This document shows, in pieces, positions 7,290 through 32,190 of a stretch of DNA of 64,000 bases. Under the pieces are notes generated by a model, which saw nothing but the letters and a program-made list of their open reading frames with translations, was not told the DNA's origin and searched no databases. The translations under genes were made by a program, and so were the position numbers. This DNA comes from Weissella diestrammenae. GTDB taxonomy: Bacteria; Bacillota; Bacilli; Lactobacillales; Lactobacillaceae. The DNA is taken from assembly GCF_014397255.1 (NCBI RefSeq), contig NZ_CP060724.1, forward strand, positions 620,001 to 684,000, written 5' to 3'. Every line of letters starts with the position of its first letter. Positions within the stretch are counted from its first letter, which is position 1.

Positions 7290-7530
7290 TCCTCTAAATA
7301 AAAAGTCCTCTGTAGCTAACAATAACTACAGAGGACGTTAATAACGTGGTACCACCTCAAATTCGTGCAATCAAATACACCTTAATAGCTATAAAGCGCA
7401 ACCTTGATACTGTAACCAAATCGGCTCCAGTATCATCTGCTCCAAGACCATCTTCGAATTGTTATCATGACACATTCCCACCTAGCAGTGCTCTCTTAAC
7501 AGATAATCAATTTTACTCATCTTTTCATTG
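7290..7530 (-). promoter_or_regulatory. T-box riboswitch, probably methionine-specific
   Basis: The minus-strand leader carries the T-box core AGGTGGTACCACG. A terminator follows, with the arms GTCCTCTGTAG and CTACAGAGGAC and then TTTTTATTT. Upstream are AGAGAG and GGTG elements typical of stem I. An ATG followed by A (7466-7468) lies where the specifier codon is expected. A further hairpin pairs GATACTG with CAGTATC. Uncharged tRNA-Met should favour antitermination and switch on the SAM hydrolase/ECF operon. Confidence 0.88.
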
Positions 7531-7551
7531 CATGAATTTATTATGTGGAAA

Positions 7552-16814: not shown

Positions 16815-17127
16815 GATAACAAGTAAACAAGTTGAGCAGAAAAGTACATGCGTTGTAACGGCCTAGAGAGATAGCGTTTGGTGGGAGCTATTCCGTTAGC
16901 ACGTCTGGAAAATGATCTGTGATTGGTATCAGTGAGTAGCAAGTCTATCAGCTGATAACGGATTGGTCTACGTTACAAGACACACGAATCGGCAAGGCAT
17001 CATTTCGCTCTCTGCCCGCTCGTTGTCAAGGTTTTAAAAAGCAATTTTTAAAATGAAGTAGAATGGTAACACGAGAACTCGTTTCTATTTTTGGTATGTC
17101 AATATCAAAATAGGGACGAGTTTTTTC
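16815..17127 (+). promoter_or_regulatory. T-box riboswitch upstream of metQ, probably methionine-specific
   Basis: A long leader whose first domain closes by pairing TTGTAACG (near 16853) with CGTTACAA (near 16970). It contains AGAGAG, a GGTG loop between ATAGC and GCTAT arms, and AATGATC with a candidate AUG specifier at 16912-16914. The T-box core GAATGGTAACACG is at about 17062. The terminator arms AACTCGTTTCTATTTT and AAAATAGGGACGAGTT follow, then TTTTTT. It should antiterminate on uncharged tRNA-Met. Confidence 0.85.
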
Positions 17128-19248: not shown

Positions 19249-19943
19249 TGTTTAATTGGATTAACACTTATTTCCCAAATATTTATACCCAAGGTTGGGG
19301 TGGTGACTTCGGCTGGGGTACTGCTATCTGGCAAACGCTATACATGACTTTTGGTGCAGCTATTTTCGGTGGTATCTTAGGTTTGCTCTTTGGCATTGGT
19401 TTAGTTTTAACGACTGATGATGGTTTAACACCTAATCATGCCCTTTTTCAAATTTTTGATAAGGTTGTTTCCATCGGTCGAGCCATTCCATTTATTATCA
19501 TGGTCGTAGTCATTTCGCCAATCACGCAACTAATCGTCCACACTACCATTGGGGCAACCGCTGCTCTCGTCCCACTTTCACTTGGTGTCTTTCCATTTTT
19601 TGCGCGTCAAGTTCAAGTGGCTCTACTTGGTGTCAGTGCGGGTAAAATTGAAGCTGCCCGTGCCTATGGCGCAACTAATTGGGATATTATCGTTGACGTC
19701 TATCTACGTGAAGGGCGCGCTGAATTGATCCGCGTCTCAACTGTGACCCTGATTTCCTTAGTTGGTTTAACGGCCATGGCAGGTGCCATTGGTGCTGGTG
19801 GCCTTGGAACAACCGCAATTGTCACTGGCTATCAACGCTTCCAAAATGACGTTATGTGGTTAGCAACGATTATCGTCTTGCTCCTCATCGTCATTATTCA
19901 ATTTACTGGTGACTTCTTGGCTAAACGTGCACATCATAAATAA
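19248..19943 (+). CDS. metI: Methionine ABC transporter permease MetI
   Basis: Permease of 231 residues with about five spans. The EAA loop reads KIEAARAYGATNWDII near residue 143, and ALVPLSLGVFPFFARQVQ and the GAIGAGGLG segment near residue 180 are typical of MetI. Translation is coupled to metN (stop and start overlap as TAATG). Completes the second methionine importer in the window, alongside the ECF system at 3.2-7.3 kb. Confidence 0.94.
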   Translation: MFNWINTYFPNIYTQGWGGDFGWGTAIWQTLYMTFGAAIFGGILGLLFGIGLVLTTDDGLTPNHALFQIFDKVVSIGRAIPFIIMVVVISPITQLIVHTTIGATAALVPLSLGVFPFFARQVQVALLGVSAGKIEAARAYGATNWDIIVDVYLREGRAELIRVSTVTLISLVGLTAMAGAIGAGGLGTTAIVTGYQRFQNDVMWLATIIVLLLIVIIQFTGDFLAKRAHHK

Positions 19944-20050: not shown

Positions 20051-20079
20051 TTGAAAATAAAAAGCCCATCTCTTATAAT
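20051..20079 (+). promoter_or_regulatory. Promoter of a small antisense RNA (candidate antitoxin)
   Basis: TTGAAA (20051-20056), 17-base spacer, TATAAT (20074-20079), with no open reading frame of its own worth supporting downstream. Confidence 0.7.
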
Positions 20080-20085
20080 AAAGAC

Positions 20086-20173
20086 ATGAGCTACCTGACT
20101 AAACAGGCTGGCTACTCGATAAGACTAATAAAAGCCGTGATCCAGACCACCAATCTATCACACGGCTTTTTTG
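20086..20173 (+). ncRNA. Candidate type I antitoxin RNA (about 85-90 nt)
   Basis: Predicted from the strong promoter at 20051-20079 and a hairpin plus T-run ending at 20172. The RNA runs convergently against the small hydrophobic ORF on the other strand. It overlaps that transcript at the shared terminator, the geometry of par/Fst and TxpA/RatA type I systems. Its 5' end contains CCTGACTAAA and GGCTGGCT, repeated as an inverted copy in the leader of the opposing transcript. It could be only a convergent terminator region, but the paired promoters argue otherwise. Confidence 0.5.
20131..20172. terminator. Bidirectional terminator shared by the two convergent RNAs
   Basis: AAAAGCCGTG and CACGGCTTTTTT form a stem that yields a T-run on both strands. 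It stops the plus-strand small RNA and the minus-strand toxin-like mRNA. Confidence 0.8.
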
Positions 20174-20178
20174 TTTGC

Positions 20179-20265
20179 CTACTTATCGCGCCAGACGCGA
20201 ATAAGTACGACAATTGCCTTGACCAATGCAGTCAAAGCACAGAGCAACGATATCAAATCGTGCAC
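20179..20265 (-). CDS. Candidate type I toxin, 28-residue hydrophobic peptide
   Basis: From a GTG at 20263-20265 the minus strand encodes VHDLISLLCALTALVKAI, then VVLIRVWRDK, and stops at 20179. One hydrophobic helix is followed by a charged tail, the build of Fst/Hol-type membrane toxins. The reading frame is continuous with a well-initiated 12-codon ORF immediately upstream, separated only by a TAG codon. Either the peptide is made by re-initiation at the GTG, or a longer toxin of about 41 residues has acquired a nonsense codon. I do not recognise a close named relative. Confidence 0.5.
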   Translation of the reverse strand: MHDLISLLCALTALVKAIVVLIRVWRDK

Positions 20266-20268
20266 AGA

Positions 20269-20307
20269 CTACTGACCCCTCTCGTCGATTTTACCTATGT
20301 CATTCAT
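20269..20307 (-). CDS. 12-codon leader ORF in frame with the toxin-like peptide
   Basis: ATG at 20305-20307 behind an almost perfect AAGGAGGTGAT ribosome site encodes MNDIGKIDERGQ and then TAG at 20269-20271. The next codons, in the same frame, run TCT-GTG into the hydrophobic peptide. It may be a coupling leader or the severed N-terminus of the toxin. Confidence 0.45.
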   Translation of the reverse strand: MNDIGKIDERGQ

Positions 20308-20367
20308 AAGCATCACCTCCTTGACCAGTTCAGCAGCCAGCCGTGCTATTTAGTTAGGATAGTCAAT

Positions 20368-20395
20368 ATTATACTGACATATCATCTGAAAACAA
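20368..20395 (-). promoter_or_regulatory. Promoter of the toxin-like mRNA
   Basis: TTGTTT (20390-20395), 16-base spacer, TATAAT (20368-20373). The transcript would be about 230 nt and end at the shared terminator. Sequence after this -10 box (CCTAACTAAA, then GGCTGGCTGCT) mirrors the start of the opposing RNA. Confidence 0.6.
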
Positions 20396-20403
20396 GTTAT
20401 ATT

Positions 20404-21372
20404 TTAACGTGACTTTGGCCCAGGGGTTGAAACAATCAGCGTCATATCCCCAGAGAACTGCCATTCAGCAACGGTAGCTGGCATGATAAAACTGGTTGCC
20501 AAAGCTAATGGATACACCTGTTCATTGACCGTCACCGTCCCACTACCAGCAATCACGGTGTATTGCGTATATGGGGCCTGCTTAGTCATAAAGGCCTCAC
20601 CAGCAATCACATCTTGATAGACATTAAAATATGGTGCTTCGACTAACGTGGTTTTCGTGAGCGCCCCCAATTGTAAAGTTTCCGCAATTGGCTTCTCTGG
20701 TACAAATGGAACTGTCGTCACATTCTTAGCATCTGCTAAATGTAATTGTCGTAACTCACCTGTTTTCGGATCAGGTCGATCAAAATCATAGACGCGATAG
20801 GTCACATCTGAACTCTGTTGTGTTTCTAAGGCTAACACCCCCGCCCCCAAGGCATGTAGTGTTCCAGCCGGTACATAGAAAAAATCACCGGCTTTAACTG
20901 GTACCTTTTGCAAGAGTTTATCCCATGCACCCTGATCGACTAGTGTATCAAACTCGGATTTTGTTTTAGCTTGATGACCATAATAAATTTCAGCGCCTGG
21001 TTCGGCTGCCAAAATATACCACGATTCCGTCTTGCCCAATTCACTAGCATGGTGAGCAGCCGCGTAAGTATCATCTGGATGGACTTGAACTGACAAATCT
21101 CGATGGGCATCCAAAAACTTAACCAACAGCGGATAAGGTCGCGTGGCATCTTTATTTTCAAATAAATCTGGTCGGTTCTGCCAAAGTTGTGCTAAAGTCT
21201 GGCCCGCATATTTATCATTTGCTACTGGGCTCACCCCATTTGGATGACCTGAAATAATCCAAGCTTCACCGGTCGTTGCACTTGGAATCGGCATTTTAAA
21301 GACATCTTTTAAGGCTGTCCCGCCCCAAATCTTTTCATGCAAAACTGGTGTTAAAAAAATTGGCTCCGTCAT
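20404..21372 (-). CDS. manA: Mannose-6-phosphate isomerase, class I
   Basis: Interconverts mannose-6-P and fructose-6-P, feeding glycolysis or mannose-containing polymer synthesis. The 322-residue short Firmicute form has the zinc-site motifs LSVQVHPDD near residue 93, GKTESWYIL near residue 112 and AGTLHALGAGVLALE near residue 169. EIWGGTAL-type text (KIWGGTALKDVF) is at the N-terminus. It is last of three minus-strand genes beginning with the YbaK-like gene; spacing of about 20 bases suggests one operon. Confidence 0.94.
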   Translation of the reverse strand: MTEPIFLTPVLHEKIWGGTALKDVFKMPIPSATTGEAWIISGHPNGVSPVANDKYAGQTLAQLWQNRPDLFENKDATRPYPLLVKFLDAHRDLSVQVHPDDTYAAAHHASELGKTESWYILAAEPGAEIYYGHQAKTKSEFDTLVDQGAWDKLLQKVPVKAGDFFYVPAGTLHALGAGVLALETQQSSDVTYRVYDFDRPDPKTGELRQLHLADAKNVTTVPFVPEKPIAETLQLGALTKTTLVEAPYFNVYQDVIAGEAFMTKQAPYTQYTVIAGSGTVTVNEQVYPLALATSFIMPATVAEWQFSGDMTLIVSTPGPKSR

Positions 21373-22747: not shown

Positions 22748-22762
22748 AATCGTAATTTCAAT

Positions 22763-22898
22763 TATCTGGGGTGCCAATTTGGCTGAGAAATACCCATTGA
22801 ACCTGATGATGGTAATGCATCCGAAGGGAGATACATCTTTTAATTGCCTTTTTTGGTCAACGACGATGTGCTCTATCATCAGTCGATGGCCATTTTTT
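22763..22898 (+). promoter_or_regulatory. TPP riboswitch (THI box) with terminator platform
   Basis: Canonical aptamer elements in order: GGGGTGCC, GGCTGAGAAATACCC, GAACCTGAT, and GGTAATGCATCCGAAGGGA. Downstream, TGGTC..CGAC pairs with GTCG..GGCCA and is followed by TTTTTT (22854-22898), giving a transcriptional off-switch when thiamine pyrophosphate is bound. Confidence 0.95.
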
Positions 22899-24963: not shown

Positions 24964-25497
24964 TTATTCGCTATATGTATTATTTAATCGCCATGTAAGT
25001 TCTGACTCTTTGGAACCAATGGTCAGCGTCCCAGTCGTTGGCAAATGTAGTTTAAATTCATCGGCTGTGTACGAATAAGTTGTTAATCCCTTTTTGTCTT
25101 CACTATTTGACCGGAAAGTGATTTGATCACTAGCAATTGATGAATCACCAAAATAAATTGGCATGGTTTCTTTTGCAATTTCATTTGTATTCCAATTGCC
25201 ACTTTGTTCAACGGTAATACCAAAATGCCCCGCGTGACTTTCTCGACCATCGTTGACGCGAATCAAGCCTGATGCCAGATTGCCTTTTGGCTCACCCCAA
25301 CTACTTAAATTAATCGAGCCGAAGTCAACGTTACCCGCCTCACCTTGAAAAGTAAGTTCGGTATTATTATTAGTAAAGGTTACTTTTCCGTTTGACTTTA
25401 TACTTGTAATTGCTTCGCCATAAATTGTCAGGGGCGTCAGTGCAGAAACAGTCAGTAACGTGGTAAGACTAAGTGTAACGACTTTTAATTTTTTCAT
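24964..25497 (-). CDS. Short WxL-domain surface protein
   Basis: Secreted protein of 177 residues. Signal peptide about residues 1-28 (KKLKVVTLSLTTLLTVSALT). The mature part is a lone beta-rich WxL-type domain: VDFGSINL near residue 58 and, at the end, SELTWRLNNT, the distal WxL motif (W-R-L). WxL domains bind peptidoglycan non-covalently in low-GC Gram-positives. AAGGAG precedes the ATG. It is followed by no gene on its strand and preceded by 400 bases without coding sequence, so it is likely transcribed alone. Confidence 0.75.
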   Translation of the reverse strand: MKKLKVVTLSLTTLLTVSALTPLTIYGEAITSIKSNGKVTFTNNNTELTFQGEAGNVDFGSINLSSWGEPKGNLASGLIRVNDGRESHAGHFGITVEQSGNWNTNEIAKETMPIYFGDSSIASDQITFRSNSEDKKGLTTYSYTADEFKLHLPTTGTLTIGSKESELTWRLNNTYSE

Positions 25498-25904
25498 TAG
25501 TTTTCTCCTTTATTAACGTGTTGTTTGTATGCCTATCCGACATGTTTTATTATGCCTATTGAATATGATGAAAAATAAGTGTTTTTGTTTTGTTTTTGCA
25601 AAAAGATATTGAATTAAATACTAATGTTATGTTAATTCATATTTTTTGTCCTTAATTTCGGACTTTTTTACTTTATTTAAATCAGCTTTCCCAAAACCAA
25701 CCAAACTAACCCAACTTCAAAGTCTACATTAGTCATGTGATTCACATCATCATCACTTTATTCTTTGAAACAGGAATAATAGTTCTTACTCACACACATT
25801 TATGACATTTATCGACTGGTTGGTAATCGTATCCTTTAGCGTAGAAAAAATCACTTAATTAGCCTGATTAACATCAGATACCTGCGTTAAATTCATTGAT
25901 TTTT
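25498..25904. other. AT-rich intergenic stretch without a gene
   Basis: No supportable ORF, RNA gene or strong promoter. A weak CATAAT lies about 50 bases before the downstream WxL gene start on the minus strand. A GTCC/GGAC mini-hairpin near 25650 has only four stem pairs. Confidence 0.5.
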
Positions 25905-26474
25905 CTAAGTTGGGGTATCTTCAATTTGCCAAGAGAGTTGCGTTTCATACGCGACATCCGGCTGAATCGATTGATTCATGGCTAAATGGGCCTCAAACGT
26001 GTTTTCTTGAATTGGGATCGTCACTGTTCCGCGTTGCTCACTTGGGTTTGATTGCACAAATACTGCTGCTGCACTAGCCAAGGGGTAATTTTGATAATAA
26101 ATAACTAGTCCTGATTGGGGAATCGAATGCGGTCCGGTAGTAAGTGGCGACCATGTTGTCCCAGTTTGTTGAACAGAAATTTGATATTGCTGTCCATTAG
26201 GCCGTTGTACGCGTGTATCATCAAACGTCACTTCAGAATTATCTGTAGATACCACACTATTATGGAAAATATGTTTTTCTGGTGTATCTAATGCCTGACT
26301 AGTTGTCATTTGAAATCTAATACAGCCGGCACTAAAATGCTCGCCCAAGCTGCCTGCATCGCTAATCATAAATGCCGAGTCTGTTGTGGTTTGTGCCAAG
26401 GCTTGTTGCGGTAAAAAACTGAAACCTAATCCTAATGCACCCATTAACATGATGTTTATTTTTGTTAAATTCAT
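25905..26474 (-). CDS. Short WxL-like surface protein with WxI motif
   Basis: Secreted protein of 189 residues from the ATG at 26472-26474, chosen because GAGG lies eight bases upstream and a clean signal peptide follows (INIMLMGALGLGFSFLP, cleavage near ALA-QTT). The C-terminus reads YETQLSWQIEDTPT, matching the distal WxL motif with Ile replacing Leu. One cysteine (SAGCIRFQ) occurs in the mature part, unusual for an exported Gram-positive protein. The ribosome site lies inside the end of the upstream gene; the coding regions overlap or nearly so. Confidence 0.65.
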   Translation of the reverse strand: MNLTKINIMLMGALGLGFSFLPQQALAQTTTDSAFMISDAGSLGEHFSAGCIRFQMTTSQALDTPEKHIFHNSVVSTDNSEVTFDDTRVQRPNGQQYQISVQQTGTTWSPLTTGPHSIPQSGLVIYYQNYPLASAAAVFVQSNPSEQRGTVTIPIQENTFEAHLAMNQSIQPDVAYETQLSWQIEDTPT

Positions 26475-26484
26475 ACCATTCACC

Positions 26485-27432
26485 TCAACTTTCTTGGCTC
26501 GGATAGTCACCAAGGGTATACGTAAAGGTTGCCGTATAGGTCAATTGATGAAGGGATTGATTCTTTGGGATTCTTAAAAAATAACACCCTTTCACACGAT
26601 CGCCAGTATTATATTTACCCTTTCCAACCAAATTGTATTCATTCTCACCACTCGATCCGGTTTTCTCTGCCTTAAGCCCATTCACCTCACCCCCATATTC
26701 ATAAGTAAATGTGCCAAAGGTATTTGCTGCATTATCCGACATCGCATTGACAGCATTATCATCCATTACCCAATGAATCCCTTCACCCGCACGAAACGTC
26801 TTTGTGTCATTCCGATTCGCTTCGGATGAATTCGTATTTCCCGATGAGGTATAGACAAAATTATCATCCGTTTCAATCCTGACTTTCTCCGGTGATAATT
26901 CCTCACGCTCATAAGTGGTTTCATCTCCCACGCCTTGATGTGGCACAAACGTATGAAATGGCTCTGACATCTTAACCGTTGTTAACAAAGGTGTATTCAC
27001 CGCCTTATCGGAACGCAAGTCAACAATTTGACAAAACGGACGCACACCAAAGGCGGCACCATGTTCGCCAACTTGAACCCCTGTCACAATCGGATAAATG
27101 CCAACTGCATTGCCTAAGTCTTTGTAACTACCATCATTGGTCATCGTATTCGACAGCATATTACTAGATATATTTCCAAAACTCAAGCGACTAATATAAG
27201 TAAAGCCAAAGCCGTTGGCGACCACACCATTAATTTGTTGACCATTAATCATTAACGGTTCGCCTTTTGCTCCCCATTCACTGTTTGTATTCGTTGCGGT
27301 TGCCATTTGATTATTTTCAACATTAAAGTCAACACCATTTTCAATGCTATTCGCTAGTACACAGTCTGATAGCCCACAAATAACAATTTCAAGTAACGCT
27401 ATACTGATTAATAGCTTCTTAATCATTCTCAT
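26485..27432 (-). CDS. WxL-like secreted protein with tyrosine-substituted motif
   Basis: Secreted protein of 315 residues. Signal peptide about residues 1-27 (KKLLISIALLEIVICGLSD). The mature region is beta-rich; the C-terminal 40 residues read LTYTATFTYTLGDYPS, aligning with the distal WxL motif but with Tyr in place of Trp (Y-T-L). Two cysteines in the mature part (RPFCQIV near 132 and KGCYFLRI near 282) could form a disulfide. GGAGG precedes the ATG. It lies between the big adhesin and the short WxL-like gene, all co-oriented. Confidence 0.6.
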   Translation of the reverse strand: MRMIKKLLISIALLEIVICGLSDCVLANSIENGVDFNVENNQMATATNTNSEWGAKGEPLMINGQQINGVVANGFGFTYISRLSFGNISSNMLSNTMTNDGSYKDLGNAVGIYPIVTGVQVGEHGAAFGVRPFCQIVDLRSDKAVNTPLLTTVKMSEPFHTFVPHQGVGDETTYEREELSPEKVRIETDDNFVYTSSGNTNSSEANRNDTKTFRAGEGIHWVMDDNAVNAMSDNAANTFGTFTYEYGGEVNGLKAEKTGSSGENEYNLVGKGKYNTGDRVKGCYFLRIPKNQSLHQLTYTATFTYTLGDYPSQES

Positions 27433-27482
27433 CGCGACAATCCTCCAGAAAAATCCACACTCATTGTGCTATAGCATCACTA

Positions 27483-30400
27483 CTAGGAAGGCGTGCTGTT
27501 GAGCGTCAAGACAATTGTTGGTGAAGATATGCCATCATCATCATCATCATCATCATATAGATAATATCCATGTTTTATCATATGGCTACTATTTAGACTC
27601 AAGAACCAGCCTTTTTCATTTAATGCACCTGTTGGATTCCAATCTTGACTCAAATTAACCACGGGCTCACCTTGATTCCCCGTCTCTCGATTAAAGAGCA
27701 TCGAATCTTCTGTTGAAATCAGCTGTTCAGCGCCATCTTGTTGTGCGCGATAACTTAACATTAAATCATCCCCCGTTAATGAACCCAAAGACGAATAACA
27801 CGCTGTAATTTCCCAAGGTATATTGTGATTTGTTGAATCATCTCCGACTAACAACGCCCCAATATTAGTACTATAATGCGTATTCAAGGCATTTTTATTG
27901 AAATGACCATCCATCCCTCGACGGAAATTCCCAAAATTGAAATACTCCAATGAATCAATAATATATGGCAATTTTTGTTCAGGTGCAATGGTTCTATATT
28001 CAGCAGAATGCGCTTGATAGTCATGATAGCTATACGACACTGGTGCCGCTTCAATGCTTTCGTCATTCACAGTCGCTTGTGTCCAAAACTGAATTTGAAC
28101 GCCTTGTTCAATCTGTTTACTAGGATTTTCCTGATTATGGGCCAATATTTGTGCTTCCGTGACAGTCCATTCCTTACCATCATTATTGGTTGAATAAGTT
28201 GCTCTATCTAACGTCATTAAATCCACGTAAGAATCAGCACTATCTTCTCCACGTAAAATAATCCGATCCGTGTTAATCATTGTTTTGAAAGTAAACCCGC
28301 TTGACGCATAAATAATGGCTGATAGGTCATAAACCGGTGGCGCATACGTCACGGTTTTTTTAACCGTTGTTGTTTCAACTTCATCATTTGGTAACTTGAT
28401 TGAGAAGGTTTGATTGCCATTTTGATATTTTGAATGATAAAGCGATCCGTTCGACTCGTCCGCTGGTAGCGACCAATTTTGTGACTGTTGACTTTCAAAT
28501 TCAAAAACCCCATTTGCGTCCGTGGTCGTCGTATTACTAACCAGATTAAATGTTGGCGTTGCTGTGATGGTGTGTCCTGACCCACTCCCGCTCCAGGTGA
28601 CAGTCCCATTATCATAATCAATTGTCGGACGGGCAGCAACATGATAAACACCACGAATATAGCGGTCTGAATCAGATATAGCCTCAGTTTCATCACTCAC
28701 ATACGGAATACTTTGACGATTAGGGTAGATTTGTCCATCATCAGTTTGATATGTTCCATCATGTAGTTGCTTGGCCCATTTTAACCACTCAAAATTCTGG
28801 CTCTGTATTTCAAAGACCGTATATTCCTGTTGTTGAACCACACTACCAAAAGCATTATAACCTGCAGTTCCAGTGGTAGGATAACGCGTCCCATTTTTCA
28901 ACAGAAAATAATTTTCCCCTTGCGTATAGCCATGTTGCACCATTTCATTGATTGCCACATGATTCCATATCCAACTAGAATTATGATCATCTTTTGAATA
29001 ATTATTATTATTCATATCATTAAGACTGCCATAAAATGACACGTTACTATTGATAATATTCATTTCTAAAACCTTCGACCCAGTCGTATAGCCGGTCCAA
29101 TCTGTCTCACCACCATTAATCATGCAATATTTTGGTGAATCAACATGGAATTTTAATGTGACCCCGCCATCGGTCGCACTACCTGGAATCCAAATTGATT
29201 GTCCTTGAGCGCTTAATGGCGAAATCACTAACGTGCCACGACTAGCACAATTAAAATTGACATGGGCGTTTGTACTTAACGTTGCCGATGGTACGCGAAT
29301 CACACCATTGTAAGCTGTGTTCTCATTTGTAATACTCGACATGGCTAACACGCCATCCGTTTTAATATTCCAATTGGTCGTTTGCGTTACCACCTTGTTT
29401 ATATTATTCCGTGCCACGACAACGCCATCATAACTTTGAAGTAATAAAGTGCCCCCAATATTCATCTCGCCACTACCATCAATAACGCTATAGTCCTGTG
29501 AAGCAACGCCATTTCCAGCCCGGCTTTCATTTTTCCTCTGAATCAATACCTTTGCCCCTTGGTCAATATCAATCCCCTTTGCTTGGACATTAGTATATTG
29601 GTTGGTATTCGCTCGTCGATAATTGTTAAAAATCCCCCAGGTTTCAACGACATAGCCATTCGAATTGGTTGTTGCTGTCGCGGTCGTCGCTGTTTGATTA
29701 TTATGTATCCCTTGATATTGACAATCACTATAGGCATGGATTGTACCACCCATGAGTTGACTCCCTTTAGTGGTCATTTGAATTAAATGATGTAGGTTAA
29801 TGGTCATTCCTGGTAATAAAAAAGCTGAGAGATAGCCGGTACCACTTAAGTTAACACTAACCTTGTCCAGTGTTAAACTACCTACTAACGACACATTATC
29901 CGTATTGGTATTACGCCACAAAATACTATTTTTAAAATTATCAGAATTAATACTTGCATCCGTTTCACTACTTGAAAAATTAATATCCTTAATTGTTATG
30001 TTAGGTGTCGTACTAATATTACTCGAGACGCCTAAGCCACAGATTGAACTCCCTGTACCTTTAAAATTAATCGTCACTGGGGAGTTTGGATTAGCGCTTG
30101 TAATGATACAATCTGTTGTTCGTAAATTGTTACTCATCGTCGTGTAATCACTATATGTATAATCAAAATTTGAACTGACAATAATCTCGCTCACATTAGG
30201 ATTTTGCCAAGCGGCAACAAATGTCTCGGTGTCAGTGACCGTTGCTGTAGCGCCTAAAATATGTCCGGTAGATGGTGCGTTATTAATCACATGAAATGAC
30301 GCCTGCTGATCATCATGAACTTTTTGTTCCACCGGTTGTTTGGCTGACTGTTCATCGGTTTGTGACGTCTGATTTCCCTTTGGTATTTCCAATCCAGATT

Positions 30401-30569
30401 CGGAATTATCTGAAATCTGTGGTGCTTTCTGATGCTGTCGACTCATTTCGTGATTTGCTATCGAGTCGGCCATCACAATACCAGCGCTACTCAGATAGTT
30501 TAATGCGATTGTGCTGCACATCAACAAGACAATCATTCGCTTGATATGGCTATATAAGAATATTTTCAT
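27483..30569 (-). CDS. Large beta-helix (pectate lyase-like) adhesin with WxL-like C-terminus
   Basis: Secreted protein of 1028 residues. Signal peptide about residues 1-35, then a polar linker (35-90). A parallel beta-helix adhesive domain covers about 105-400: TETFVAAWQNPNVSEIIVSS, then TINFKGTGSSI and NITIKDINFS, as in pectate lyase-like adhesin domains. Ig-like beta modules lie around 640-800. The C-terminus has a run of seven Asp followed by ISSPTIVLTLNSTPS, a WxL-like end lacking Trp. No LPXTG sorting signal is present. The ATG at 30567-30569 has AAGGAG seven bases upstream. Confidence 0.7.
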   Translation of the reverse strand: MKIFLYSHIKRMIVLLMCSTIALNYLSSAGIVMADSIANHEMSRQHQKAPQISDNSESGLEIPKGNQTSQTDEQSAKQPVEQKVHDDQQASFHVINNAPSTGHILGATATVTDTETFVAAWQNPNVSEIIVSSNFDYTYSDYTTMSNNLRTTDCIITSANPNSPVTINFKGTGSSICGLGVSSNISTTPNITIKDINFSSSETDASINSDNFKNSILWRNTNTDNVSLVGSLTLDKVSVNLSGTGYLSAFLLPGMTINLHHLIQMTTKGSQLMGGTIHAYSDCQYQGIHNNQTATTATATTNSNGYVVETWGIFNNYRRANTNQYTNVQAKGIDIDQGAKVLIQRKNESRAGNGVASQDYSVIDGSGEMNIGGTLLLQSYDGVVVARNNINKVVTQTTNWNIKTDGVLAMSSITNENTAYNGVIRVPSATLSTNAHVNFNCASRGTLVISPLSAQGQSIWIPGSATDGGVTLKFHVDSPKYCMINGGETDWTGYTTGSKVLEMNIINSNVSFYGSLNDMNNNNYSKDDHNSSWIWNHVAINEMVQHGYTQGENYFLLKNGTRYPTTGTAGYNAFGSVVQQQEYTVFEIQSQNFEWLKWAKQLHDGTYQTDDGQIYPNRQSIPYVSDETEAISDSDRYIRGVYHVAARPTIDYDNGTVTWSGSGSGHTITATPTFNLVSNTTTTDANGVFEFESQQSQNWSLPADESNGSLYHSKYQNGNQTFSIKLPNDEVETTTVKKTVTYAPPVYDLSAIIYASSGFTFKTMINTDRIILRGEDSADSYVDLMTLDRATYSTNNDGKEWTVTEAQILAHNQENPSKQIEQGVQIQFWTQATVNDESIEAAPVSYSYHDYQAHSAEYRTIAPEQKLPYIIDSLEYFNFGNFRRGMDGHFNKNALNTHYSTNIGALLVGDDSTNHNIPWEITACYSSLGSLTGDDLMLSYRAQQDGAEQLISTEDSMLFNRETGNQGEPVVNLSQDWNPTGALNEKGWFLSLNSSHMIKHGYYLYDDDDDDDGISSPTIVLTLNSTPS
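27533..27556. repeat. Trinucleotide microsatellite (CAT)8 encoding poly-Asp
   Basis: Eight perfect CAT units on the plus strand, read as GAT codons in the adhesin. Length change by slippage would add or remove Asp without a frameshift. Confidence 0.95.
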
Positions 30570-30572
30570 CAA

Positions 30573-30917
30573 TTAACTCCTTATATTTATTTTTTTCAAT
30601 TTTCTCAAATAATTTTGTATTTTTTATGTTTTTATTGCGTTATATTAATCGCTATTTACCCTTACTTCGTTTATTGTCCGATCAAATCGTGATGTCTTTA
30701 TTCATTATCGCGCTACCAATTAAACAAAAATACAAACGCAATTATCATTAGCTCCAAAAACTCAATCAATCGTCATAGCTTGTCTATATTAAACCAAAAT
30801 TGGTTGACAACCTTCAGTTCAATACCGAAAGATTGACAACCAATTGATTAATTAAATGCAAAACCCATGGCATTCACCATTTTTTCAGCGCGCATTTGTT
30901 GTTTTTACCAAACACAC
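30573..30917. promoter_or_regulatory. Intergenic region upstream of the adhesin, with repeated TTGACAACC
   Basis: No gene seen. TTGACAACC occurs twice (30804-30812 and 30833-30841, 29 bases apart). The outer arms AATTGGTTG and CAACCAATT face each other, so the same segment could act as a weak terminator for the minus-strand gene ending at 30918 or as a regulator-binding site. Sequence nearer the adhesin start is very AT-rich and no convincing -35/-10 pair stands out. Confidence 0.4.
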
Positions 30918-31964
30918 CTAGTTGGTTTGGTCCTGCTTTTTGCGTTTTAAAACCACAAATACTAGTACACCACTCAAACCGGCAAGACAAACAATAATCA
31001 GCCAAATCCACCAAGGAATGCCAGTATCATGCACAATTGACACATCCTTTGCATTGAGTGTTTTTGCTTTTGCAGCCGAAATAGTGAAGTTTTTTGTAAA
31101 GTACCACGTGTTATGGGATGATTTAACCGTCATTTTCATGCGATATCTACCGGCTTTAAATGCCGTTCCTTCAATACTTAACGGATAATTAAAGACTGTA
31201 TTCGGCGCAATTTGCATATTTGAACGCTTGCTCTCATATAAAACCTTCTTGCTGTTTGCCCGATAAACTTTTGATTGAATGGCAACACGATTAATATAAT
31301 TTTCAGATTTATTGTGCAGTTCAGACATCACCGCATTACGTAATGATACTTGCCCAGCAGTGACTTTCTTCAAAGTGAGCTTTTCAGGTACTGTATGATC
31401 TGCTTGCGTTTGCATCACAATCCCGATTGCGTAAGCATAGCGATTTAAGATTGAAATCCCGGCTTTTTTCTTTGTTTGTTGATTATCATTCACTTTTGCT
31501 TGAGTAATTGAAACACCACCAGCAACAATTCCTGGCCATGTTTGATTTGGTACATGAATTGTAAATGTGAAAGGTACCGTTTGATGGGCTGGTACCGTTA
31601 TTTTCTTAGGAAAATCGGTGGCTTTTCCTAAATCAAAGGGAATTGTTTGATCTAACTTGTTTTTCGATGGTGCGTATTCAACAACCCCATTAACATTCGT
31701 CTTGGCCGTCGTGACTGCTGTAATCATCTCTTGTGCATCATCAGTTGCATTGGTTAAATTGACCGTTAATTTTTGATCCTCTCCAGGTTTAACCAATAAA
31801 TCAAAATAGGTGTGGTTTTTATTAAATTGATTACTGGGTAAAACTGCACTCACGCTAACTCCCATCGGGTTAACCGGTGTATTTTTTTGTTTGGCATTAA
31901 TGCCAGCGACACAGCCTGTCAGCCCAATGATTAAACTCATCATTCCCAATCCAATTTTTTTCAT
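30918..31964 (-). CDS. WxL-interacting protein (DUF916-DUF3324), membrane anchored
   Basis: Surface anchor partner of WxL proteins, 348 residues. The N-terminal DUF916 peptidoglycan-binding domain opens with NQFNKNHTYFDLLVKPGEDQ, and the middle DUF3324 host-binding domain follows from about residue 150. A C-terminal transmembrane helix (WWIWLIIVCLAGLSGVLVF) and basic tail end the protein. The signal segment ends LTGC, which fits a lipobox, so the N-terminus might be lipidated as well; this would be unusual with a C-terminal anchor. The ATG at 31962-31964 follows AAGGGA; an upstream in-frame ATG gives no signal peptide. Confidence 0.82.
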   Translation of the reverse strand: MKKIGLGMMSLIIGLTGCVAGINAKQKNTPVNPMGVSVSAVLPSNQFNKNHTYFDLLVKPGEDQKLTVNLTNATDDAQEMITAVTTAKTNVNGVVEYAPSKNKLDQTIPFDLGKATDFPKKITVPAHQTVPFTFTIHVPNQTWPGIVAGGVSITQAKVNDNQQTKKKAGISILNRYAYAIGIVMQTQADHTVPEKLTLKKVTAGQVSLRNAVMSELHNKSENYINRVAIQSKVYRANSKKVLYESKRSNMQIAPNTVFNYPLSIEGTAFKAGRYRMKMTVKSSHNTWYFTKNFTISAAKAKTLNAKDVSIVHDTGIPWWIWLIIVCLAGLSGVLVFVVLKRKKQDQTN

Positions 31965-32190
31965 ATGTATGTATTCCCTTCCACTGATTTCAATCACTGA
32001 CACATCTATTCTTTAAAAATAATTCAAAGAATTGATTTTTTTATGACTTTTCTTTGTTATTTCATTTTTTCATCTTAGTATTATCTTCATGCTCTCTTCA
32101 CGGTCACTCACTATACTAATAACATAAGACATATAGATTTACTGACACCACTGAAATCTCAATCAATCATACATAATCAGGTAAATACTT

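Follow-up and report, generated by a model that had tools for sequence, protein, structure and literature searches.

The RatA/rli28 family of toxin-antitoxin loci is already known. In Bacillus subtilis, txpA/RatA is controlled by RNase III decay of the toxin messenger RNA (mRNA), and bsrG/SR4 combines such decay with a change of fold at the Shine-Dalgarno (SD) sequence (PMC6562991; PMC3531473; PMC4147584). In Listeria plasmids rli28 overlaps a BsrH-like toxin gene beside RatA, and a role as cis regulator for rli28, and as antitoxin for RatA, has been put forward as speculation (PMC9484302); in prophages of Streptococcus agalactiae, rli28 and RatA lie 60 bp apart (PMC6064168). No account of a leader open reading frame (ORF), or of a switch between the 5' and 3' ends of the toxin mRNA, was found in the literature searched, which had few subscription papers within it. 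Here we describe a candidate relative of these loci in Weissella diestrammenae, contained in 345 bases (20,051 to 20,395) of a 64,000-nucleotide stretch of contig NZ_CP060724.1, hereafter the window, which is itself part of a 1.66-Mb single-contig genome.

A sequence-only reading of the window had proposed a type I toxin-antitoxin locus at this place, and every element that it listed is present where it had put it (Table 1). The proposal is supported by our analysis, on the basis of homologues of the peptide and of the anatomy of the locus. We conclude, with a probability of about 0.72, that the locus is a divergent type I toxin-antitoxin module of the RatA-linked group of Lactobacillales, for which we infer transcription, toxicity, translational coupling and a switch. 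As a type I module it combines a 28-residue peptide with a predicted antisense RNA overlapping the 3' end of the toxin mRNA, and as a member of the group it has an SD sequence (SD1) and a leader ORF before the toxin start, and matching text in the 5' untranslated region (UTR) and the antitoxin. RatA-linked loci of Lactobacillales and Listeria likewise consist of a convergent toxin mRNA and antisense RNA with overlapping 3' ends, and those of Lactobacillales share with ours the strong SD with a short leader ORF, a toxin start at GTG or TTG, the matching text between 5' UTR and antitoxin, and a terminator-like mRNA hairpin at the antitoxin 5' end. Our locus differs from them in that its sequence lies beyond both Rfam models, its antitoxin lacks the typical RatA 5' hairpin, and its leader, of 12 codons, stops 3 nt short of the toxin start.

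The anatomy, the homology, the conserved leader start and the shared text, with its covariation in relatives, were established computationally. Compared with a profile of 18 relatives from which it had been excluded, the hydrophobic 28-residue peptide that follows the TAG in frame, as the sequence-only reading had described it, was the best of the 1789 ORFs of the window (E 8e-7) and scored 25.8 bits, against at most 13.6 bits for 2000 shuffles of it. A profile of three RatA-linked toxins (L018, L192 and L200) also ranked it first of 1789 ORFs (E 2.3e-6; next ORF 0.34), with some circularity since L018 had been found with our own peptide. By the homology test the peptide belongs with the RatA-linked LTALVKAI-type toxins of Lactobacillaceae, a group defined here. 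Protein searches of plasmids and phages gave no match to it, and Pfam and NCBIfam returned only sub-threshold, unrelated domains of unknown function.

Searches by tblastn with the peptide alone gave weak matches, several of which lie in the same anatomy: a strong SD, a small hydrophobic peptide with a basic tail, a terminator-like hairpin and a convergent short RNA. Many weak tblastn matches were rejected as coding-sequence noise, the anatomy being found only in L010, L014, L015, L017, L018 and L022-L025. In L018 the convergent RNA is Rfam RatA (59.4 bits). Further relatives were added by the profile search, among them G107, in which the toxin-profile match (E 1.6e-5) adjoins an independently found RatA match of 62.3 bits. 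In three relatives (L010, L014 and L025) the intact toxin-antitoxin unit is followed downstream by partial copies of it. The sequence-only reading had made its case depend on conservation of the peptide frame: the toxin frame is conserved, but the 12-residue leader peptide is without conservation. A profile of the relatives' 5' modules, our own excluded, gave a single match in the window, exactly at SD1 and its ATG (E 0.0034); two other matches of this profile in the genome were read as coding sequence (alaS-like and hflX-like by eye).

Comparison with described systems places the locus closest to the RatA/rli28 type. The Rfam model of rli28 (RF01492) matches relatives (L240 at 90 bits, L112 at 68 and L220 at 45.1), and its matches cover the promoter, 5' UTR, leader and toxin start of RatA-linked Lactobacillales mRNAs (L240:1253-1433, L236:1257-1438, L112:1651-1838). 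From these positions, rli28, which Rfam holds as a Listeria small RNA, is probably an mRNA rather than a non-coding RNA. The txpA/RatA locus resembles ours in being of type I, in the antisense overlap at the 3' end, in a very strong SD and in a hydrophobic peptide, but the strong SD of txpA is the toxin's own (PMC3531473), no leader ORF is described in txpA, and Pfam does not class our toxin as Hol_Tox/TxpA. Among published systems bsrG/SR4 comes nearest to the switch proposed below: binding of its antitoxin at the 3' end refolds the toxin SD (PMC6562991). A leader ORF coupled to the toxin is known from mok in hok/mok/Sok of plasmid R1 (PMC4147584). Sok, however, is antisense to the leader region and our antitoxin to the 3' end, and the sequences are unrelated. 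The hok mRNA also shows long-range pairing between its 5' and 3' ends, a likeness to our locus, and to our knowledge neither a leader ORF nor a 5'-3' helix mirrored in the antitoxin is known for bsrG/SR4. Convergent RNAs and a small hydrophobic toxin are shared with par of pAD1 (Fst, RNA I/RNA II) and with Lpt of Lactobacillus rhamnosus; par has direct repeats common to both RNAs (PMC4147584), whereas the repeat in our locus is inverted, a distinction that the sequence-only reading had drawn correctly.

The toxin mRNA probably ends at a second hairpin past the antitoxin 5' end and not at hairpin 1. A shared bidirectional terminator had been proposed for hairpin 1; the stem does form on both strands, at -13.8 (plus) and -19.1 (minus) kcal/mol, but a good T-run follows it on the plus strand alone (TTTTTT; minus TTTTATTAG). 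Hairpin 2 has the stem AGCTCATGTCTT/AAGAGATGGGCT with one mismatch and the loop TATTAT, followed by TTTTTATTTT, and an equivalent hairpin with T-run stands at the antitoxin 5' end in relatives (alignment A2). With a second hairpin and T-run on the toxin strand at this place, an mRNA that reads through the antitoxin gene is likely, and in such an mRNA the mirrored text would form a helix between the two ends of the molecule.

The matching text, CCTAACTAAATAGCACGGCTGGCTGCT / CCTGACTAAACAGGCTGGCTACT, scores 13; among 20,000 random window pairs, 83 do as well or better (p about 0.004). In a shuffle test of the shared text our locus gave p 0.01 and most relatives p 0.003. In relatives the 5' UTR text GTTAAGGCGGTGGCTA matches the antitoxin hairpin region TTTAAGACGGTGGCA, and matching text in both RNAs is a hallmark of the family. 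The sequence-only reading had taken this text as the beginning of both RNAs; in an mRNA that extends to hairpin 2 it would provide pairing between the ends of the toxin mRNA and not merely a common start. Over 29 mRNAs, 91% of the cells of an 11-pair 5'-3' helix are paired, against 34-71% when the helix is slid by 1-3 columns, and two-sided changes are seen in 8 cells, where shuffling gives 2.0 on average; 4 pairs have such changes, and 29 of 500 shuffles yield at least as many. Our own row is misaligned in the helix columns and so contributes nothing to the covariation count; folding gives its helix as GGCUGGCUGCU/AGUAGCCAGCC plus CCUAACUAAA/UUUAGUCAGG. Pairing of the 5' UTR mainly with hairpin 1 was considered and rejected: it reaches -22.9 kcal/mol but p 0.07 in our locus, and pairing past hairpin 1 fits the mirrored text better.

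The 5' switch element has two complements, one at the 3' end of the toxin mRNA and one immediately upstream of the toxin start. In folds of our full-length mRNA its partner is the 3' end (P about 0.9); once the 3' end is removed, its partner is UCAGUAGUC (P 0.97), a segment that takes in the leader stop and reaches to just short of the GUG, and the start codon is then closed. The two states recur in the folds of most relatives, and upon removal of the 3' end the element shifts onto the toxin ribosome site (SD2) in most loci; truncation is here a proxy for antitoxin binding and differs from it. With shuffled 5' UTRs the mean 5'-3' pairing falls in 16 of 16 loci and SD2 pairing in 14 of 16.

We hypothesize that the minus-strand mRNA encodes a membrane-type toxin of 28 residues and runs through the antitoxin gene to hairpin 2, and that the antitoxin would be an RNA of about 87 nt from the plus strand, antisense to the mRNA 3' end. 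The 5' element GGCUGGCUGCUGA would then be able to pair either with the 3' end of the same mRNA or with UCAGUAGUC before the toxin start. Once the antitoxin has captured the 3' end, the 5' element would be free to fold over the toxin start and stop translation, and binding would additionally make a duplex for RNase III. Extended to RatA/rli28-type loci across Lactobacillales, the proposal is that the toxin mRNA is a two-partner switch joined to a conserved leader start that couples or gates translation, with Weissella keeping the layout while almost all of the sequence has changed. We advance this general form tentatively, at somewhat short of even odds. Another account, that the antitoxin provides only a 3' duplex for RNase III and that 5'-3' pairing is protective or a by-product, agrees with the published mechanism of B. 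subtilis txpA/RatA (PMC6562991, PMC3531473) and with the lack of significance of our own toxin-start pairing taken alone. We regard it as a serious possibility, if still clearly on the doubtful side, since the text shared by 5' element and antitoxin is maintained across divergent loci, with two-sided changes, and the 5' element moves onto SD2 in most loci once the 3' end is absent.

The leader is the second component of the proposal. The strength of SD1 is matched or exceeded at 2 of the 2671 ATGs of the window (both strands, itself included), in agreement with the near-perfect ribosome site claimed earlier for the minus transcript, and the 12-codon ORF ending in TAG was also confirmed. Its stop lies 3 nt before the toxin GTG in the same frame, with 42 nt from leader start to toxin start; at this distance restart by leader ribosomes is possible, and ribosomes finishing the leader could thereby couple its translation to that of the toxin. 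A strong SD with ATG is found upstream of the toxin in all 33 of 33 relatives tabulated, the leader start being fused in frame to the toxin in L208, and loci of other families of the order likewise have a strong SD and ATG ahead of the SD and start codon that belong to the toxin. The relatives' leaders read MV, MVLNL, MT, MGI or are long overlapping frames; they have 2 to >50 codons and variable sequence, and stand in frame 0, 1 or 2 relative to the toxin. What is conserved is therefore the leader start site, not a joined peptide. In L114, L172, L175, L178, L179, L209 and L229 a leader in another frame crosses the toxin start and most or all of the toxin gene, and such out-of-frame leaders resemble mok over hok.

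The same leader could act in the opposite sense, as a decoy or holding site: ribosomes detained by a super-strong SD and a very short ORF would leave the toxin start closed or occupied, giving repression instead of coupling. Leaders of 2 codons, with SDs mostly at -14 to -19 kcal/mol and about 40 nt before the toxin, would suit this role, and slowed ribosome release by very strong SDs has been suggested for txpA and yonT (PMC6562991). We nevertheless consider it unlikely, given that the stop of our own leader, 3 nt from the toxin start, is a typical restart arrangement and that the leader crosses the toxin start in several relatives.

For the TAG itself the sequence-only reading had left two options, nonsense inactivation or a leader that couples translation, and only the leader is upheld, by the strong SD and ATG that relatives carry in any frame. 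A decayed module, in which an in-frame nonsense mutation split a toxin of about 41 residues that is now silent, is suggested in that the 12-codon ORF shares its frame with the peptide and is separated from it by no more than TAG TCT. It is nonetheless improbable. Relatives' toxins begin with GTG, TTG or ATG at the same position behind an SD of their own; their leader ORFs are separate, unrelated in sequence and in any frame; the hydrophilic leader residues NDIGKIDERGQ have no counterpart in relatives' toxins; and SD1, SD2, both promoters and both hairpins are intact. As leaders occur in frame 0, 1 or 2, there is no ancestral joined peptide of 12+28 residues to inactivate, which argues for the TAG as the end of a short leader ORF and not a nonsense mutation.

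Several results weigh against this reading of the locus. Several family members were found with our own peptide as seed. Searches of the genome with Hol_Tox (TxpA, Pfam PF16935) and with Fst_toxin (Pfam PF13955) gave no match at the locus, a Hol_Tox-type profile scoring 6 bits on the peptide, not above background. Neither Rfam RatA (RF01776, up to E 10) nor rli28 (RF01492) matches the locus, and its antitoxin is not recognised by a purpose-built antitoxin model, R2. Genome-wide, the 5'-module profile places the locus second (E 0.086), behind an apparent coding sequence. The -35 of the toxin promoter (TTGTTT) is weak, though its -10 is perfect. A DNA search of the genus returned the locus itself only, with no relative of the whole locus in 27 congeners. 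Taken alone, our own 5'-3' pairing is marginal, the observed value being reached by 4 of 60 shuffled 5' UTRs; for our own pairing at the toxin start 17 of 60 shuffles do so, which is not significant. That promoters and a hydrophobic ORF coincide by chance in an intergenic region is scarcely credible, for although the elements are short and the whole locus has no relatives in the genus, the same 345 bases carry both toxin-profile matches (E 8e-7 and 2.3e-6), the 5'-module profile match, the rank of SD1 and the mirrored text (p about 0.004).

The sequence-only reading had described two good facing promoters; this is borne out for the plus strand and overstated for the minus strand, whose promoter, with its weak -35, was not listed by the promoter scan. 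Transcription of the toxin mRNA is predicted to start near 20361 (minus strand), and relatives have a -10 of TATAAT, TATACT or TACACT at the same place. On the toxin strand the loop of hairpin 2 overlaps the antitoxin -10 TATAAT, which puts two signals on the same bases (20059-20092). The antitoxin contains a RatA-like hairpin, CCTGACTAAACAGG, followed by CTGGC at 20094-20112, for which the RatA counterpart is CCGTTTAAGACGGTGGC. That the plus transcript has no convincing ORF also holds: a mechanical frame of 108 residues on the plus strand (20086-20412) has no support.

Table 1. Features of the Weissella diestrammenae locus, in window coordinates
Feature	Position	Strand	Remarks
Antitoxin promoter, TTGAAA-17-TATAAT	20051-20079	+	11/12 consensus matches
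Hairpin 2, likely true toxin mRNA terminator	20052..20092	-	fold -13.9 kcal/mol
Predicted antitoxin RNA, ~87 nt, antisense to toxin mRNA 3' end	20086..20172	+	sequence
Hairpin 1, antitoxin terminator on plus strand (T6), weaker terminator-like stem on minus	20130..20172	both	folding
Toxin ORF, GTG start 20265, 28 codons, stop ending 20179, VHDLISLLCALTALVKAIVVLIRVWRDK	20179..20265	-	profile matches
Leader ORF, MNDIGKIDERGQ-TAG, 12 codons	20269..20307	-	sequence
SD2, GAGAGGGG, toxin ribosome site	20276..20283	-	-12.1 kcal/mol, inside range of relatives' SD2
SD1, AAGGAGGTGAT, near-perfect ribosome site of leader ORF	20312..20322	-	-18.6 kcal/mol to anti-SD
5' UTR switch element, CCTAACTAAATAGCACGGCTGGCTGCTGAAC	20328..20358	-	same text as antitoxin
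Toxin promoter, -10 TATAAT 20373-20368, -35 TTGTTT 20395-20390, spacer 16	20368..20395	-	sequence
Intergenic space holding the locus	460 bases		flanked by metI (plus, end at 19943) and manA (minus, end at 20404)

The locus is single-copy in its genome, and the manA of the window has its nearest matches among manA genes of Weissella. In 13 other Weissella loci metI does not adjoin manA and no related 5' module is present at those sites, so that there is no orthologous site for comparison. Elsewhere the window holds two T-box leaders, at 16823-17089 (plus) and 7328-7537 (minus), the first of which precedes an ATP-binding cassette operon of the methionine-uptake type, a thiamine pyrophosphate riboswitch at 22757-22846 (plus), and at 24964-32003 (minus) a secreted-protein cluster that, by ORF translations only, resembles a WxL surface-protein cluster.

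In conclusion, RatA loci are common in lactic acid bacteria: at E <= 1e-5 they are present in 140 of 397 family genomes. The mRNA that accompanies them is listed in Rfam as the Listeria small RNA rli28. The leader start and the mirrored text suggest translational control, in contrast to the published view of txpA/RatA as mRNA decay alone. The anatomy described here lets annotators spot members of the family that have diverged in sequence and are missed by current models.
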